DNA of 64,000 nt from the NCBI GenBank assembly GCA_001940925.1, contig MSGZ01000038.1, forward strand, positions 56,876-120,875, in the 5' to 3' direction. The position numbers were made by a program, and so were the translations under genes. The DNA is from Ruminococcus sp. Phil11. Lineage in GTDB: Bacteria; Bacillota; Clostridia; Oscillospirales; Ruminococcaceae. Positions 1,212-60,918 of this stretch are shown one piece after another (the stretch's first letter is position 1; each line of letters starts with the position of its first letter). The notes beneath the pieces were generated by a model. It searched no databases. It saw only the letters and a program-made list of their open reading frames with translations, and was not told where the DNA came from.

Positions 1212-1395
1212 CTCCGCGGATTTATAATAAGGATGCTGCCCCCTCCGCTCAGGCGGCAGGCTTGCGGAGCTCCTCCGTATGATAAGGGTATTTCGCCGCC
1301 TGCGGACGGCGACCAGAGACGCTGTCTCTGGACTCTGCCAGCTTTTTGAAAAAAGCTGGACCAAAAACTTTTATTCGGCTGCAGACCACAGTCGA
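1212..1395 (-). repeat. Family-1 multi-hairpin intergenic repeat, short copy
   Basis: Read on the minus strand this shares the module order of the copy at 31188-31620: TGCAGCC, an AAAAGTTTTTGGTC-AGCTTTTTTC block, a CAGAGAC/GTCTCTG hairpin, a CGCCG/CGGCG hairpin, then CATACGGAGGAGCTCCG. The stems differ from other copies by paired changes. The left part of the long element is missing here. It fills the spoIIP-to-841 gap. Confidence 0.7.
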
Positions 1396-2554: not shown

Positions 2555-2635
2555 ACATGCCGCTCCTTTCCAGTATGCCCGTTCGGTACATTCCTATGCA
2601 GCAGCGCGGAAAATAATGTGCCTCCGGCGGATTCA

Positions 2636-3010
2636 TAATGGGCTCCGCCCAAACCCGCCAAAGGGACACTGTCCCTTTGGAATCCCATTATGGGGATAAA
2701 AGGGGCGTAACCGGTCGTGCACATAATAAAAGTTTCGCGCAAGCCTTTAAAAAGGCTTGCGGGTCAAGGGCAGCACCCTTGTCGCACTCCGCAGAGTGCG
2801 AAACTCCCCTATCGTCAGGCGCACCGCAGGGGTGAATCATAAAAACGCTCCGGGGGAGCGTTTTTATGAGAGGGAGGCCCTGTAAGAGAGGGCCTCCCCA
2901 GGCGGATTGCAGAGCAATCCGCAGCGCGCGGAAAGCGTCAGGCTGACGAAAGTCAGCCGGCAGCTTTCTGCACGTGCAGGTTTCCAAAGGGCGAAAGCCC
3001 TTTGATTCTC
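2636..3010 (+). repeat. Family-1 multi-hairpin intergenic repeat
   Basis: This is a long copy in plus orientation filling the 552-bp gap between spoIIP and the yfhO-like gene. In order it holds an AAAGGGACA/TGTCCCTTT hairpin, GGGGCGTAACCGGTCG, an AAGCCT/AGGCTT block, AAGGG/CCCTT, CGCACTC/GAGTGCG, AACGCTCC-GGG-GGAGCGTT, GGGAGGCCCT/AGGGCCTCCC, GCGGATTGC/GCAATCCGC, a nested hairpin and a final AAAGGGC/GCCCTTT hairpin. It runs antisense to both flanking genes. No open frame with a ribosome binding site is visible in it. Confidence 0.85.
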
Positions 3011-11403: not shown

Positions 11404-11658
11404 ATGTATATCCATCTGGGCGAGAGCATTTCGATCAATGACACGACGGTCATCGGCGTGTTTGATCTGGAAAATACAACGATCGGGCAGGATACGCGCA
11501 TGTATCTGAACCGGATGAAAAAAGAGGGCAGAGCCGTGGAGGTCTCCGCGGAGATGCCGAAAAGCTTTGTGGTGTGCATGGAAAACGGCGAGGAGGTCGC
11601 GTATATTTCGTCGATCTCGGTCGCCACGCTGAAAAAGCGCGCAAAAACGCTGTTCTAA
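11404..11658 (+). CDS. DUF370/RemA-RemB family protein
   Basis: The product is 84 aa, starting at an ATG after AGGAGG. It begins MYIHLGESISIND and contains IGVFDLENTTIG, the DUF370 pattern seen in B. subtilis YaaB (RemB), which also sits between recF and gyrB. The related RemA is a DNA-binding regulator of matrix and osmoprotection genes; the function of RemB-type proteins is less clear. It is followed directly by a short family-2 repeat. Confidence 0.88.
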   Translation: MYIHLGESISINDTTVIGVFDLENTTIGQDTRMYLNRMKKEGRAVEVSAEMPKSFVVCMENGEEVAYISSISVATLKKRAKTLF

Positions 11659-11722
11659 GCGGTCGGCAGGGCCGACAGCCGTTTCCCTTCGGGAGCATTT
11701 TGCGAAGCACTCCCAAAAAAAT
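11659..11722 (+). repeat. Family-2 palindromic intergenic module, short copy
   Basis: CGGTCGGCAGGGCCGACAG then CCGTTTCCCTTCGGGAGCA and GCGAAGCACTCCCA start right after the stop codon. The same string, also starting right after a stop codon, occurs at 55240. The GTCGGC/GCCGAC stem could act as a weak terminator. Confidence 0.7.
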
Positions 11723-30170: not shown

Positions 30171-31187
30171 ATGAGATTTGCTTTTTTTGACGCAAAAGCG
30201 TATGATAAGCCGTCCTTTGAGCGTTTCGGTGCGGAGCACGGCATCAAGTTCAAATTCTATGAAACAAGACTGACGGAGGATACTGCGGAGCTGGCGCGAA
30301 ACTGTGACGGCGTCTGCTGCTTCGTCAACGATACCCTCAATGCCGATGTGCTCGAAAAGCTTGCCGATCTGGAATGCAAATATGTTGCGCTGCGCTGTGC
30401 GGGCTATAACAATGTTGACCTGAAGGCGGCGGCAAACTGCGGGCTGCGCGTGGCGCATGTGCCGGCATATTCGCCCTACGCGGTCGCGGAGCACGCAATG
30501 GCACTTCTGCTGACCTCTGTGCGGCGCATCCACAAGGCGTATATCCGCACGAGAGATTTCAATTTCTCGCTGAACGGCATGACCGGCTTTGATCTGCACG
30601 GCAAGACCGTCGGCGTCGTCGGAACCGGAAAGATCGGCCGCGTGTTCATTGATATCTGCCGCGGCTTCGGGATGCATGTGATCGCATACGACAAGTTCCC
30701 GGCAAAGGATTCCGATATCGAATATGTGAAGCTGGAGGAGCTGTTCTCCCGCAGCGATATCATTTCGCTGCACTGCCCGCTGACCGATGAAACACGGCAT
30801 CTGGTCAACTGCGATTCGATCAAGCTGATGAAAAAGGGCGTGGTGCTCATCAATACGTCCCGCGGCGCGCTGATCGACGCGGAGTGCCTGCTGGAGGGCA
30901 TCAAGGCACGGCAGATCGGTGCGGCGTGTCTGGATGTGTACGAGGAGGAAACGGAATATTTTTATGAGGATTTCTCCGGGCATATTCTGAATGACGATAT
31001 CCTTGCGCGGCTGATCTCCATGCCGAATGTCATTGTGACATCGCACCAGGCGTTTCTGACCGAGGAGGCACTGACCAATATTGCAGAGACAACTGTCCTC
31101 AATATGAAGTCGCTGCACGATGACGGAGCCTGCGCGAATGAACTGGTCTGGAAGGACGGCGAAATCGTCCACGGGACGCAGAAATAA
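30171..31187 (+). CDS. ldhA: D-lactate dehydrogenase (D-2-hydroxyacid dehydrogenase family)
   Basis: The product is 338 aa from the ATG at 30171 after CGGAG. The NAD-binding GVVGTGKIGRVF is near residue 149. Catalytic Arg (NTSRGALID), Glu (VYEEETEYF) and His (VTSHQAF, about 292) are present, and the overall length and the YEEE-FYED segment fit LdhA-like D-lactate dehydrogenases. It reduces pyruvate to D-lactate, regenerating NAD. It sits upstream of a multi-hairpin repeat and the flavodiiron gene, in a redox neighbourhood with adhE. Other 2-hydroxyacid substrates are possible. Confidence 0.88.
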   Translation: MRFAFFDAKAYDKPSFERFGAEHGIKFKFYETRLTEDTAELARNCDGVCCFVNDTLNADVLEKLADLECKYVALRCAGYNNVDLKAAANCGLRVAHVPAYSPYAVAEHAMALLLTSVRRIHKAYIRTRDFNFSLNGMTGFDLHGKTVGVVGTGKIGRVFIDICRGFGMHVIAYDKFPAKDSDIEYVKLEELFSRSDIISLHCPLTDETRHLVNCDSIKLMKKGVVLINTSRGALIDAECLLEGIKARQIGAACLDVYEEETEYFYEDFSGHILNDDILARLISMPNVIVTSHQAFLTEEALTNIAETTVLNMKSLHDDGACANELVWKDGEIVHGTQK

Positions 31188-31620
31188 GGTATCGCTTCGC
31201 GATGATCTGAAATGGGGCTCCGCCCCAAGCCCCCGCTGGGGACTAGTCCCCAGACCCCATTGTGTGGATAGAAGGGGCGTAACCGGTCGGGCGGTAAGCA
31301 AACCGTTTGCAGCCATATCAAAAGTTTTGGTCAAGCTTTTTCAAAAGCTTGCGGGTTCTTAGGGCGGAGCCCTAAGTCGCACTCCGCAGAGTGCGAAACT
31401 CCCCTTCATACGGAGGAGCTCCGAAAGGGGGAATCGAGCAAAACGCTCCGGGGGAGCGTTTTGTCGAGGGGGGAGCCCTGCGATAGAGGGCTCCCCCAAG
31501 CGGATTGCAGAGCAATCCGCGCCCGCCCGCAGCACGTAGGAGCGACGCAAGTCGCGACGAGTGACCGGGCGTTCAGGTTTCCAAAGGGCGGAGCCCTTTG
31601 GATGAGAACATCAACAGAAA
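31188..31620 (+). repeat. Family-1 multi-hairpin intergenic repeat, best copy
   Basis: The longest copy (about 430 bp) starts right after the ldhA stop. Hairpins in order: ATCGC/GCGAT, GGGGC/GCCCC, CTGGGGACTAGTCCCCAG, AAGCTTTT block, TAGGGC/GCCCTA, CGCACTC/GAGTGCG, GGAGCTCC, AAAACGCTCC-GGG-GGAGCGTTTT, GGGGGAGCCCT/AGGGCTCCCCC, GCGGATTGC/GCAATCCGC, a nested GCCCG..CGGGC stem enclosing GCGAC/GTCGC, and CCAAAGGGC/GCCCTTTGG. Compared with other copies the stems carry paired substitutions. No protein is encoded. Confidence 0.88.
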
Positions 31621-31654: not shown

Positions 31655-33445
31655 ATGAATATTACAACCGACATCCGCTATATCGGCGTCAACGACCACC
31701 AGATCGACCTGTTTGAGGGGCAGTACGACGTCCCGAACGGCATGGCGTATAATTCCTATGTCATCATGGACGAGAAGATCGCCGTCATGGATACCGTTGA
31801 CCGCAATTTTACGCATGAGTGGCTCGATAACCTTTCCGCTGTGCTGAACGGCAGAAAGCCCGATTATCTCGTTGTGCAGCACATGGAGCCAGACCATTCC
31901 GCAAATATCGCAAACTTTTTGAGCCTTTATCCGGAGGCGACCGTCGTCGCTTCTGCAAAAGCATTCCAGATGATGCAGAATTTCTTTGGCTGCGATTACG
32001 CCGACCGCCGCATCATCGTCAAGGAGAAGGACACGCTCAGTCTCGGCAAGCATACGCTGACCTTTGTCGCCGCACCGATGGTGCACTGGCCGGAGGTGCT
32101 GATGACCTACGACAGCACGGACAAGGTGCTCTTTTCTGCGGACGGCTTCGGCAAGTTCGGTGCGCTCGATATTGAGGAGGACTGGGCCTGCGAGGCAAGA
32201 CGCTATTATTTCGGCATCGTCGGCAAGTACGGGGCGCAGGTACAGGCCGTGCTCAAAAAGGCCGCCGGACTCGATATTCAGATCATCTGTCCGCTGCACG
32301 GTCCCGTGCTGACCGAGAACCTCGGCTACTACATCGGGCTGTATGACACATGGTCGTCCTACGGCACCGAAACCGAGGGCATTGCCGTGTTCTATACCTC
32401 TGTCTACGGCAATACCAAGCGCGCCGCCGAAAAGCTCGCGGAGGAGCTGAAGGCAAACGGCTGCCCGAAGGTCGCGCTCAATGACCTCGCCCGCGAAGAT
32501 ATGGCGGAGTGCGTCGAGGATGCGTTCCGCTACGGCAAGATTGTTCTTGCGACCACGACCTATAACGCGGAGATCTTCCCGTTCATGCGCATCTTTATCG
32601 AGGAGTTGACTGAACGCAACTTCTCGAACAGAACTGTCGGTCTGATCGAGAACGGCACATGGGCTCCGCAGGCCGAGAAGGTCATGAAGAAGATGCTCGA
32701 GGGCTGCAAAAATCTCACATTTGCGGAGAATACCGTGCATATCAAGTCCGCGCTGAACGAGGAAAGCAATCAGCAGATCAAGGCACTTGCAGAGGAAATG
32801 TGCCGCGATTACCGCGCCATGCAGAGCGATACCGCGGACAAGAACGATCTTTCCGCGCTGTTCCGCATCGGCTACGGGCTGTATGTCGTTACCTCGAATG
32901 ACGGCACCAAAGACAACGGCCTGATCGTCAACACGGTCACGCAGGTCACGAATACGCCGAACCGCGTCGCCGTCACGATCAACAAGGAGAACTATTCGCA
33001 TCATGTCATCAAACAGACCGGCATCATGAATGTCAACTGCCTGTCCGTGGACGCGCCGTTCAAGGTGTTCGAGAACTTCGGTTTCCGCAGCGGCAGAAAT
33101 GCGGATAAGTTTGCGGACTGTCAGCCGGTTCGCACCGACAATGGTCTTGTGATGCTGCCGCATTATATCAATGCAATGCTGTCGCTCAAGGTCGAGCAGT
33201 ATATCGACCTCGGAACGCACGGCATGTTTATCTGCGAGGTCACCGAGGCGCGCGTTATCAACGATGCCGAGACCATGACCTATACCTACTATCAGGAAAA
33301 GGTCAAGCCGAAGCCGCAGACCGAGGGCAAAAAGGGCTGGGTCTGCACGATCTGCGGGTATGTCTACGAGGGCGAGGAGCTCCCCGAGGACTTTGTATGC
33401 CCGCTCTGCAAGCACGGTGCCGCGGACTTTGAGCCGATCGAATAA
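31655..33445 (+). CDS. Three-domain flavodiiron protein (FDP-flavin reductase-rubredoxin)
   Basis: The product is 596 aa. Residues 1-250 form the metallo-beta-lactamase-like diiron core with HMEPDHS (about 76-82), VHWPEV and CPLHGPV. Residues about 255-390 are a flavodoxin FMN domain (YTSVYGNTKRAA). Residues about 405-540 are a flavin-reductase-like domain (NGLIVNTVTQVT, GIMNVNCLS). The last 50 residues are a rubredoxin with CTICGYVYEGE and CPLCKHG. Flavodiiron proteins reduce O2 to water or NO to N2O; the fused reductase and rubredoxin should let one polypeptide pass electrons from NAD(P)H. It lies between ldhA and the sodium-pump genes, fitting oxygen protection in an anaerobe. Confidence 0.93.
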   Translation: MNITTDIRYIGVNDHQIDLFEGQYDVPNGMAYNSYVIMDEKIAVMDTVDRNFTHEWLDNLSAVLNGRKPDYLVVQHMEPDHSANIANFLSLYPEATVVASAKAFQMMQNFFGCDYADRRIIVKEKDTLSLGKHTLTFVAAPMVHWPEVLMTYDSTDKVLFSADGFGKFGALDIEEDWACEARRYYFGIVGKYGAQVQAVLKKAAGLDIQIICPLHGPVLTENLGYYIGLYDTWSSYGTETEGIAVFYTSVYGNTKRAAEKLAEELKANGCPKVALNDLAREDMAECVEDAFRYGKIVLATTTYNAEIFPFMRIFIEELTERNFSNRTVGLIENGTWAPQAEKVMKKMLEGCKNLTFAENTVHIKSALNEESNQQIKALAEEMCRDYRAMQSDTADKNDLSALFRIGYGLYVVTSNDGTKDNGLIVNTVTQVTNTPNRVAVTINKENYSHHVIKQTGIMNVNCLSVDAPFKVFENFGFRSGRNADKFADCQPVRTDNGLVMLPHYINAMLSLKVEQYIDLGTHGMFICEVTEARVINDAETMTYTYYQEKVKPKPQTEGKKGWVCTICGYVYEGEELPEDFVCPLCKHGAADFEPIE

Positions 33446-33505
33446 GGTATCGCTTTGCGATGGATCAAAATGGGGCTCCGCCAAAGACCCCGTTATGTGT
33501 GACAA
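33446..33505 (+). repeat. Truncated family-1 repeat start
   Basis: GGTATCGCTTTGCGATGGAT and ATGGGGCTCCGCC directly after the stop repeat the first 60 bp of the copy at 31188, which also begins right after a stop codon. The rest of the element is missing. Confidence 0.75.
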
Positions 33506-33508
33506 ATC

Positions 33509-33539
33509 GGGTGCTGATGTAACAGTCGGCACCCTTTTT
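33509..33539 (+). terminator. Terminator after the flavodiiron gene
   Basis: GGGTGC (33509-33514) pairs with GCACCC (33529-33534), followed by five T. The loop CTGATGTAACAGTCGG is close to that of the recurrent GGACGC terminator. Confidence 0.8.
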
Positions 33540-38193: not shown

Positions 38194-38952
38194 ATGGTAT
38201 ACAAGCAGGAACAGGTCATTGCAACGCGGCCGGCGAAGGTCGTGTACCGCGAGGGCGACACCGTCGTCAAGCTGTTTGATCCGGAATATTCCAAGGCGGC
38301 CGTCCTGAACGAGGCACTCAATCAGGCGCGCGTCGAGGAGACCGATCTGCATATTCCGCAGCTGCTTGAGGTATTCAAGGCAGACGGCTGCTGGGCAATC
38401 CGTTCGGACTATATTGAGGGCAAGACGCTGCAGCAGCTCATGGACGAGAATCCGGAGAAGCTGGATGAATATCTGGAGCAGTTTGTCACGCTGCAGATGG
38501 AGATTCACACCAAGCGCGCACCGCTGCTGACCAAGCTGAAGGATAAAATGCACCGCAAGATCAGCGACAGCAAGTTCGAGGCAACGATTCGCTTTGAACT
38601 GCATACCCGCCTTGAGGGTATGCCCAAACACAAAAAGGTCTGCCACGGCGATTTCAACCCGTCCAATGTCATCATCACACCGGACGGCACGCCGTATATC
38701 ATTGACTGGGCACATGCGACGCAGGGCAATGCCTCTGCGGATGTGGCGCGGACGTATCTGTATCTGACGCTGCACAACGGCGAGGCGTTTGCGAAGAAGT
38801 ATCTCAAGACATTCTGCAGAATGAGCGATACCGCGCTGCAGTATGTGCAGAACTGGATGCCGATCGTGGCGGCGTCGCAGTCGGTGAAAGAGAACAGCCC
38901 CGAGGAATTTGCCCTGCTCTCCCGCTGGGTGAATGTTGTGGACTACGTGTAA
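38194..38952 (+). CDS. Aminoglycoside phosphotransferase-like kinase
   Basis: The product is 252 aa. The kinase fold is seen in VVKLFDPE (ATP-binding lysine), the catalytic HGDFNPSNVI (about 150-159) and the metal-binding IDWAHA (about 168). The family includes choline, homoserine and antibiotic kinases; nothing points to antibiotic resistance here. It begins 15 bp after adhE following AAAGGGGG, so it may share the transcript. Confidence 0.85.
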   Translation: MVYKQEQVIATRPAKVVYREGDTVVKLFDPEYSKAAVLNEALNQARVEETDLHIPQLLEVFKADGCWAIRSDYIEGKTLQQLMDENPEKLDEYLEQFVTLQMEIHTKRAPLLTKLKDKMHRKISDSKFEATIRFELHTRLEGMPKHKKVCHGDFNPSNVIITPDGTPYIIDWAHATQGNASADVARTYLYLTLHNGEAFAKKYLKTFCRMSDTALQYVQNWMPIVAASQSVKENSPEEFALLSRWVNVVDYV

Positions 38953-39080
38953 GCGCGGAGCCCGCGCCGGCATTTCCCTCCGGGGACGGTGAGCGAAGCA
39001 CTCCCAATAATCTGAACACACGCCGCGGGGCGGCTTCTTTGGCGTTACTTCTCCCAATACTGAAGCACGCCGCAGGCATA
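38953..39080 (+). repeat. Family-2 palindromic intergenic module
   Basis: Starting right after the stop: GCGCGGAGCCCGCGC hairpin, GGCATTTCCCTCCGGGG, GCGAAGCACTCCCAATAATC, CACGCCGC..GCGGCTTCTT, and TTCTCCCAATACTGAAGC. The same succession is at 55240-55375 and, inverted, at 57726-57858. Confidence 0.8.
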
Positions 39081-39091
39081 ACTGAAAACCG

Positions 39092-39126
39092 AAAAGGACG
39101 CTGACAAAACAGTCGGCGTCCTTTTT
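39092..39126 (+). terminator. Recurrent GGACGC terminator hairpin
   Basis: AAAAGGACGC pairs with GCGTCCTTTTT around CTGACAAAACAGTCG. It would end the adhE-kinase transcript and sits between the family-2 and family-1 repeat modules. Confidence 0.8.
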
Positions 39127-39127
39127 G

Positions 39128-39345
39128 CATTCAGCTGCCGGTCGAGAGGCAGGCTAACGGTTTGCAGCCTATCAAAAGTTTGCGGGGTCGAGGGGCAGAG
39201 CCCCCGTCGCGCTCCGCAGAGCGCGAAACTCCTCTATCATACGGATGAGCTCCGAAAGGGGGAATCGAACAAAACGCTCCGGGGGAGCGTTTTGGAGAGG
39301 GGGGAGCCCTGCGATAGAGGGCTCCCCCAAGCGGATGCTGCCGCT
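39128..39345 (+). repeat. Family-1 multi-hairpin intergenic repeat
   Basis: A medium copy in plus orientation: GCCGGTCGAGAGGCAGGCTA, GGTTTGCAGCC, GGGGC/GCCCC, CGCGCTC/GAGCGCG, ATACGGATGAGCTCCG, AAAACGCTCC-GGG-GGAGCGTTTT and GGGGGAGCCCT/AGGGCTCCCCC. The CGCGCTC stem has G-C pairs where the copy at 31188 has A-T. It ends 7 bp before the convergent anti-sigma gene. Confidence 0.85.
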
Positions 39346-44203: not shown

Positions 44204-44235
44204 ACAGCACACCGGAAACGAACGGATAAACACAG

Positions 44236-44269
44236 AAAAGGACGCTGATGCTGTAATCGGCGTCCTTTT
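44236..44269 (+). terminator. Recurrent GGACGC terminator after degV
   Basis: AAAAGGACGC pairs with GCGTCCTTTT around TGATGCTGTAATCG. It can also serve the convergent PAP2 gene on the minus strand. Confidence 0.8.
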
Positions 44270-55239: not shown

Positions 55240-55375
55240 GCGGTCGGCAGGGCCGACAGCCGTTTCCCTCCGGCGCGGAGCCCGCGCTGGCATTTCCCTC
55301 CGGGGGAATGGAGCGGAGCACTCCCAGTTTTCGTCACTTCACGCCGCTGACGCGGCTTCTGTAAGGACAGTTCTC
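55240..55375 (+). repeat. Family-2 palindromic intergenic module
   Basis: Starts right after the stop: CGGTCGGCAGGGCCGACAGC as at 11659, then GCGCGGAGCCCGCGC, GGCATTTCCCTCCGGGG, GAGCACTCCCA, CACGCCGCTGACGCGGCTTC. It combines the short copy at 11659 and the copy at 38953. Confidence 0.8.
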
Positions 55376-55442
55376 CCCGCATTTGGCTTTTCTGATTGCT
55401 GTCGGAGAATTTGAAGTGAGCACTTTTCCAAGCCAAAGAAGT

Positions 55443-57394: not shown

Positions 57395-57725
57395 TCTGCG
57401 CTGCCGCGCTTCGGAGCCAAAGGGCGGGTGCCCTTTGGAAACCTGCCCGCTTCACTCGTCGCGGCTGATGCCGCTCCTATGTTCAGCGGGCATCGCGGAT
57501 TGCTCCGCAATCCGCCTAGGGAGGCCCTCTCTTACAGGGCCTCCCTCTCATCAAAACGCTCCCCCGGAGCGTTTTGATGATTCACCCCTGCGGTGCGCCT
57601 GACGATAGGGGTGTTTCGCGCTCTGCGGAGCGCGACGGGGGCTCCGCCCCTCGACCCTGCAAACTTTTGAAAAAAAGTTTGATCAAAACTTTTGTGAGGC
57701 TGCAAACAGTTCGTCTAACGCCCGA
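57395..57725 (-). repeat. Family-1 multi-hairpin intergenic repeat, inverted
   Basis: Read on the minus strand the order is CCGGTCGGGCGTTAG, TTTGCAGCC, AAAAGTTTTGATCAAAC, GGGGC/GCCCC, CGCGCTC/GAGCGCG, CACCGCAGGGGTGAATCAT, AAAACGCTCC-GGG-GGAGCGTTTT, GGGAGGCCCT/AGGGCCTCCC, GCGGATTGC/GCAATCCGC, a nested stem around GCGGC/GCCGC and CCAAAGGGC/GCCCTTTGG. It is the closest relative of the copy at 2636. Confidence 0.88.
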
Positions 57726-57858
57726 CCGGAATGCCCGCGGCGGGCTTCAGCATTGGGAGAAGTTGCCTAACAGAAGCCGCTTTAGCGGCGTGCAGTTCAG
57801 ATTGTTGGGAGAACTCCGCTGCCGCCCTCCGGAGGGAAATGCCACTGCGGGCTCCGCA
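57726..57858 (-). repeat. Family-2 palindromic intergenic module, inverted
   Basis: On the minus strand: CTGCGGAGCCCGCAG, GGCATTTCCCTCCGGAGGG, TCTCCCAACAATCTGAA, CACGCCGCTAAAGCGGCTTC, TTCTCCCAATGCTGAAGC, CGCCGCGGGC. It precedes the family-1 element in the same orientation, as it does at 38953-39345. Confidence 0.85.
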
Positions 57859-60820: not shown

Positions 60821-60872
60821 GCGTTCACGCCGCAGAGCGGCTTCTTTGGATTTGCTTCTCCCAATGCCCAAG
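60821..60872 (+). repeat. Fragment of family-2 module
   Basis: CACGCCGCAGAGCGGCTTCT and GCTTCTCCCAATGCCCAAGC repeat the second half of the family-2 copies. Confidence 0.65.
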
Positions 60873-60884
60873 CATACATTAGCA

Positions 60885-60918
60885 AAAAGGACACCGATCA
60901 CAGCACCGGCGTCCTTTT
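60885..60918 (-). terminator. Recurrent GGACGC terminator after aroQ
   Basis: On the minus strand AAAAGGACGCCGG pairs with CCGGTGTCCTTTTT (with wobble positions) around TGCTGTGAT. It lies 15-48 bp beyond the aroQ stop. Confidence 0.8.

Follow-up and report, generated by a model that had tools for sequence, protein, structure and literature searches.

What is the long row of hairpins between a 2-hydroxyacid dehydrogenase gene and a flavodiiron-type gene in Ruminococcus sp. Phil11, and how do its stems remain matched while they differ from copy to copy? Several copies of this element are found in the window, i.e. the whole stretch of 64,000 nucleotides that was analysed (contig MSGZ01000038.1). 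The reference copy begins directly 3' of the TAA of the dehydrogenase gene (30171-31187) and is followed by the flavodiiron-type gene (31655-33445). It is composed of a head module with three hairpins, a small hairpin, a core of three hairpins (H1-H2-H3) and the hairpins H4 to H9:

31188 to 31605, plus strand: reference copy of the element, with about a dozen hairpins in a row
31188 to 31253, plus strand: head module M1, flush with the stop codon, with hairpins at 31191-31203, 31213-31227 and 31236-31253
31298 to 31310, plus strand: small hairpin GCAAAC/GTTTGC in the link 5' of the core
31332 to 31351, plus strand: core hairpin H1 (CAAGCTTTT/AAAAGCTTG), which differs among copies
31358 to 31376, plus strand: core hairpin H2 (CTTAGGGC GGA GCCCTAAG)
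31377 to 31396, plus strand: core hairpin H3 (TCGCACTC CGCA GAGTGCGA) with a variable stem and a constant CGCA loop
31401 to 31430, plus strand: H4 with outer stem CCCCTT/AAGGGG and inner stem CGGAG/CTCCG
31439 to 31463, plus strand: H5 (CAAAACGCTCC GGG GGAGCGTTTTG)
31469 to 31497, plus strand: H6 (GGGGGAGCCCT / AGGGCTCCCCC) with a loop of 7 bases
31500 to 31520, plus strand: H7 (GCGGATTGC/GCAATCCGC)
31524 to 31571, plus strand: H8, long and interrupted, with 15 predicted pairs and GTAG at 31536 in the reference copy
31580 to 31602, plus strand: H9 (TCCAAAGGGC/GCCCTTTGGA)

Eight of the ten inverted repeats of at least 8 bases listed for the reference copy are 100% complementary; H4 and H8 are interrupted. 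When 31188-31605 was folded alone, z was -10.8 for RNA and -9.8 for DNA, and none of 100 shuffles was equally stable. The initial annotation had stated that there is no ORF or transposase: no called gene covers 31188-31605, and the long mechanical ORFs that reach into it from the opposite strand are not called as genes.

The window holds four further copies, a solitary head module and a second type of repeat, designated F2:

2617 to 3006, plus strand: second copy with the full hairpin set, in a tandem gap
1284 to 1376, minus strand: truncated copy, core H1-H3 and little flank
39161 to 39336, plus strand: copy without H1, comprising H2 to H6, 3' of an F2 repeat
57418 to 57697, minus strand: inverted copy, H1 to H9
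33446 to 33490, plus strand: solitary head module M1, directly 3' of the stop codon of 31655-33445
38953 to 39075, plus strand: F2, a separate dispersed repeat that begins right behind the stop codon of 38194-38952

The four larger copies that had been annotated at 31188-31620, 2636-3010, 39128-39345 and 57395-57725 (reverse strand) all exist, and the stem variants quoted for them are present and paired. The short fifth copy at 1212-1395 exists as well, but is located on the minus strand and comprises the three core hairpins (1284-1376) and little flank instead of eight hairpins. A common order of at least eight hairpins, originally ascribed to all five, holds for the three copies at 31188, 2636 and 57395, whereas the copy at 39128 lacks H1 and ends after H6. 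The second copy is oriented opposite to its flanking minus-strand genes, which belong to the SpoIIP and YfhO families. In the relative G024, the truncated copy is mostly absent at the matching site, no core is present at the site corresponding to 57418-57697, and the H1 that is missing from 39161-39336 is present. Further F2 matches lie at 11656-11718, 55277-55380, 57740-57855 (minus strand) and 60823-60875; F2 adjoins two element copies (39128 and 57395). A recurring bidirectional terminator-like hairpin (AAAAGGACGCYGA..GTCGGCGTCCTTTT) is found at several gene ends (39085-39125, 33498-33538, 44229-44269, 60878-60918).

In the 3.7 Mb genome, the 433-base reference copy has at least 61 matching pieces (best 40 of 123 candidates scored) and the core alone at least 41 (best 40 of 65 candidates scored). 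A profile search of our own sample of 1,032,769 bases, which consists of the window and 49 stretches picked for holding copies or F2 repeats, yielded 54 cores (some of them partial), 42 right halves, 51 head modules and 75 F2 matches. The F2 repeats are sometimes arranged in tandem, several begin right behind stop codons, and in their first hairpins the two arms vary in concert. The core hairpins occur as discrete versions that are combined freely among copies. For H3, these include GCGCTC/GAGCGC, GCACTC/GAGTGC, CCGTC/GACGG, GCTCAC/GTGAGC and CCCGTCGCAACGGG. Loops and links are rather constant; the stems vary freely but are matched. In several copies (L066:9647-9764, L072:5694-5816, L075:3193-3310, L076:1610-1731), H2 is interrupted by an inserted palindrome of the type AACATGAAG..CTTCATGTT, so that one hairpin sits in the slot of another. 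In genome G161 (L332-L351), inspection by eye revealed alternative end modules that recur to the right of the core, one of them with a GTAGATAGCTTTTGCTAT-like stretch. This means, the ends are mosaic in another family, too.

The 433-base copy matches 23 of 25 genomes of the same genus (own genome included, some with one weak match) and one of 16 other genomes of the order. With a 90-position core model and stricter filters, the core was found in 24 of 147 genomes of the order representing 17 of 86 genera; in seven of the 24 carrier genomes, the counts rest on the best 29 scored candidates. The exact H3 pattern occurs in at least 117 stretches of named records. Among the matches listed are Ruminococcus, Butyricicoccus with B. 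pullicaecorum DSM 23266, Pseudoruminococcus and Negativibacillus. An H1-like start with the expected spacing accompanies 62 of those listed, while some others clearly lack it. Viral sequence contains the exact H3 pattern in only four stretches, and blastn with the core and part of the right half against phage and plasmid records returned no match. With little or no trace in viral, phage and plasmid records, an origin from a phage or plasmid was rejected.

Where do the copies reside? Among the 54 own cores, 29 are located in convergent gaps, 15 in tandem gaps in sense and three in antisense orientation, five in divergent gaps and two at stretch ends, compared to 200 tandem, 88 divergent and 77 convergent gaps among all gaps of more than 100 bases in the same stretches. 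The occurrence of both orientations relative to genes, which the initial annotation had reported, is borne out by these counts. The cores of G161, G119 and G139 (28 convergent, 18 sense, 12 antisense, three divergent, seven with a missing neighbour) repeat this placement pattern with a weaker sense bias. Gene calls in the stretches of all four genomes were made with purpose-written scripts. Element matches cover 533 bp inside called genes vs. 20,335 bp of intergenic sequence. Hence, copies are intergenic and favour the 3' ends of genes. Moreover, 36 of 50 head modules (the 51 matches minus one without a recognisable head) start at -1 to 4 bases from the stop codon of an ORF of at least 60 codons; for shifted positions the value was 3.1%. 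Nine of the remaining 14 heads also lie behind a stop triplet, that of a short frame, and therefore a sequence preference for stop-like triplets is possible, with tight gene junctions being the tolerated places. At the reference junction, 25 loci of the genus were compared: Four of them are short (L222, L224, L230, L235; 14-20 bases), and besides the own locus and G024, seven others (L219, L221, L223, L225, L226, L228, L236) have head-like sequence that starts directly at the stop codon or a few bases away from it. L227 (G020) and L228 (G005) contain an extra small gene at this junction, which in L228 is preceded by head-module sequence. The ends of the reference site, AAATAA on the left and AAAATAA on the right, constitute a candidate target-site duplication seen by eye at this one locus. 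Replication-strand bias of the core gave no signal with the few usable convergent sites (3 to 4).

Stem variation was evaluated in two alignments, using shuffles and slid partners. From the own genome, 39 of 54 cores were aligned; 15 (seven with an inserted hairpin, eight incomplete) were excluded before counting, and for H2, whose outer pairs are gapped, only the six inner pairs were counted. Of 897 cells, 98.4% are paired, and changes are two-sided in 127 and one-sided in four cases. The covariation score is 0.396 vs. 0.142 in shuffles, with none of 500 as high, and sliding the partners by 1 to 3 columns left 52% of cells paired at most. Two weaker ones among the five measures gave less: 12 pairs with two-sided change vs. 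9.5 (18 of 500 shuffles as high) and 21 further pair types vs. 24.2 (491 of 500 as high). The cross-genome alignment comprises 58 cores, 50 of the 62 named ones and eight own ones; 12 were excluded as short, odd or second copies. In the pattern used to find the named cores, the outer and inner pairs of H3 were predetermined and only its middle pairs were free, while H1 was unconditioned; H2 is excluded from the counts. Here, 99.0% of 984 cells are paired, with 121 two-sided and two one-sided changes, and the covariation score is 0.336 vs. 0.097 in shuffles (none of 500 as high; for further pair types, 31 of 500). In neither alignment did any shuffle reach the pairing or covariation scores, and together with the slid partners this rejects chance or an alignment artefact. 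The covariation proposed from the window is thus real and far above controls. Much of the paired variation in the own genome, though, looks like whole-hairpin swapping.

This became apparent at orthologous sites. When the window was compared by eye with G024, ordinary gaps were mostly collinear and alike, whereas element gaps differed by whole hairpins. From 50 own core-bearing gaps, 11 could be placed in G024 pieces and none in G018 pieces. At two of the 11 sites, no core was recognised in G024. The other nine, all compared with this single relative, have a core in both genomes and flanks that are 89-100% identical. Their 27 hairpin slots comprise 17 that differ, nine identical ones and one whose H1 is missing in G024. 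The 17 include two with an H1 unrecognised in the own copy; H1 is deleted in the own copy at 38952 and displaced by an inserted hairpin in that of L072. Sorted by eye, the differing slots represent 12 cases of other stems, one lost own H1 and four slots in which only one or two bases deviate (L087 H1, 2554 H1 and H2, L089 H3). For 14 of the 17, the exact version of G024 is present elsewhere in the own stretches, and the same applies to 10 of the 12 stem replacements. The sampled stretches offered no counterpart for the remaining three, namely an H2 that carries an inserted hairpin and two H3 in which one base is unmatched. The reference site has identical outer ends and the same total length (467) in G024, but H1 to H3 and the right half are present there in a different version. 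In L070 (12007), H1-H3 differ while H4-H6 are identical, and at several sites (31187, L087, L070 12007) adjacent hairpins differ together. Since most replacement versions are found elsewhere in the own genome, recent covariation looks mostly like a swapping of ready-made hairpins between copies. As a consequence, the number of paired cells overstates that of independent compensatory events. The site differences are what ectopic gene conversion would give.

Another peculiarity is the scarcity of G-U pairs. In a tally of H1-H3 from 194 cores in five sets (own 46, G161 20, G119 17, G139 31, named 80), 3159 pairs were scored, among them 3116 Watson-Crick, 13 G-U, three A-C and 27 other pairs. Outer H3 pairs, which the search required, were excluded, and hairpin ends were chosen for Watson-Crick pairing, which disfavours all mismatches alike. 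The G-U share amounts to 0.4%. At fixed columns, where no ends are chosen, G-U accounts for four of 984 cells in the cross-genome and six of 897 in the own-genome alignment. By comparison, 17 tRNAs from the same stretches, read from drawings, have 19 G-U in 364 pairs (5.2%), and 136 terminator-like hairpins from these stretches, collected by nearly the same rule, have 53 in 1496 (3.5%). Thus, the G-U share of the element is about one tenth of that in tRNAs and terminator-like hairpins. Such a low share is unusual if an RNA evolves via G-U intermediates. On the plus strand, G-U exceeds A-C by 13 to 3 (p 0.02). A looser tally of distinct H1, H2, H5 and H6 hairpins gave 29 vs. 19 (one-sided p 0.10), and terminator-like hairpins have 53 G-U vs. 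30 A-C. The slight excess speaks for a single strand, be it RNA or single-stranded DNA, more than for a cruciform; the strand question is only tilted. The initial annotation had offered folded RNA or cruciform DNA; that a folded structure matters still stands, while the cruciform is slightly less favoured.

On balance, the element is real and widespread, and it is probably a non-coding extragenic mosaic palindromic repeat of Clostridia that resembles BIMEs or BOX elements in style, an assignment we make with modest confidence. Each copy can be pictured as a row of hairpin slots that have rather constant loops, are spaced by rather constant links and may be emptied or refilled. At orthologous sites, hairpins or blocks of them are replaced, lost and gained between collinear flanks. 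Copies may trade hairpins by ectopic recombination (gene conversion), for which the constant links and loops would provide homology, and pairing would be kept since a folded single strand matters. A candidate for this strand is the 3'-untranslated transcript; alternatively, it might be single-stranded DNA met by replication or by a transposition enzyme other than the Y1-REP type. The exchange reading has to contend with the four one- or two-base differences and the three slots without a match among the 17, and no donor-recipient pair has been caught. Furthermore, exchange alone leaves the origin of new matched variants unexplained. A bolder version, which we regard as rather doubtful, assumes an enzyme or a replication process for which the constant loops and links, folded as single-stranded DNA, serve as recognition sites, and which swaps whole hairpins as cassettes. 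If true, a constantly reshuffled library of matched stems would exist behind genes across a bacterial order, with active exchange between dozens of chromosomal sites.

Other explanations account for parts of these data. The hairpins might act as RNA in the transcript of the upstream gene by protecting the mRNA 3' end, by termination or by protein binding, with selection on each copy keeping the stems paired. The 3'-side bias, the ratio of tandem sense to antisense cores (15 to 3 in the own genome, 18 to 12 in the three others), the slight G-U excess on the plus strand and a T run that, by eye, often follows the last hairpin in G119 and G139 agree with such a role. It is possible but doubtful: G-U pairs are far rarer than in tRNA stems, their excess over A-C is weak in view of the looser tally and the terminator-like hairpins, and for the roughly half of the copies found in convergent gaps, orientation is uninformative. 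In addition, 16 of the 54 own cores have a terminator-like hairpin of the recurring type at most 400 bases 5' of them, which might separate the core from the upstream transcript. The near absence of one-sided intermediates (two of 123 changed standard pairs in the cross-genome and four of 131 in the own-genome alignment) could instead reflect DNA mechanics, i.e. template switching within each palindrome that copies a mutation from one arm to the other and yields perfect stems without selection. The situation in G161, where H3 has two main versions by eye and no mismatch in 20 copies, would fit as well. We deem this unlikely, because it leaves constant loops and links over several families alongside varying stems unexplained, and a process acting on single palindromes is not expected to alter adjacent hairpins together. 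Least probable, and indeed very improbable, is that a classical DDE transposase mobilises the element as a MITE-type non-autonomous transposon whose hairpins are passive cargo. The flush position behind stop codons and the occupied vs. short sites at one locus are in line with it, and among the copies listed, some right ends are, as judged by eye, inverted counterparts of the head module (GGTATC.. / ..GATACC). However, many copies appear by eye to lack one or both of these candidate terminal inverted repeats, passive stems would be expected to drift unpaired, and no transposase-bearing relative was seen with the families searched, PF01797 and PF00078.

The element, read as a mosaic palindromic repeat whose copies may exchange hairpins, represents an abundant and apparently unnamed intergenic class in gut Clostridia. 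Near-perfect covariation and hairpin swapping occur side by side here in nature, which calls for caution with methods that take covariation to prove a functional RNA. Moreover, the element opens to testing the question of how palindromic repeats multiply and keep their stems paired when no REP transposase is present. PF01797, the Y1 REP-type transposase, is absent from the own genome and present in two of 16 genomes of the genus. PF00078 (reverse transcriptase) was found in 17 of 30 genus genomes and is absent from the own genome as well as from G024 and G002, which both carry many copies. At 94.6% completeness of the own genome, one individual gene might go unnoticed. Given these absences, neither of the two known engines appears to be required, and reliance on a reverse transcriptase of the group II intron or retron type was rejected.

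As to known families, the absence of a named one, which the initial annotation had surmised, is upheld within what was searched. Rfam at the gathering score reported only a tRNA in the window, the best value for the element being 20.8 bits vs. a cut-off of 40, by which a known Rfam family was rejected. Searches of open PubMed Central papers on this question did not reveal the element either, and it is apparently unnamed within Rfam and this literature. Like REP/BIME, as described in passages of PMC3733652, it consists of extragenic palindromic units present in many copies, forming mosaics and often situated 3' of genes. The hosts named there belong to other phyla, and the main text of that paper lacks the words Firmicutes and Clostrid-. 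Unlike REP/BIME, the element has no conserved GTAG, the own genome has no PF01797 Y1/RAYT gene, and about a dozen different hairpins follow each other in a set order in place of one repeated unit. GTAG, the REP tag, occurs in one of 54 cores, and at the foot of the inner hairpin of H8 in ten copies found by pattern, GTAG is present three times (reference included), ATAG four times, ACAG twice and GCAG once; therefore, it is no conserved tag of the element. CGTC is absent from the reference copy, and other copies contain it inside H4. With neither a conserved GTAG nor PF01797, membership in REP/RAYT was rejected. BOX elements are modular. The element shares with BOX, RUP and SPRITE of Streptococcus pneumoniae that these are interspersed, have extensive secondary structure and are regarded as parasitic, according to passages of PMC3049150. 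They are found in pneumococcus, in lower numbers in S. mitis and, in BOX-related form, in S. suis, whereas the core of our element spans many genera; stem swapping does not appear in the account of those passages, and the likeness is one of style. A resemblance also exists to the mobile or repeat candidates of ncRNA surveys (PMC11109978, PMC8632094), which in the passages concerned are multicopy structured motifs that are possibly selfish; by word search, Ruminococc- and Faecalibacterium are absent from both main texts. Among all these systems, the element is distinctive in its fixed order of different hairpins, its near-constant loops, its matched varying stems and its swapping at fixed sites.
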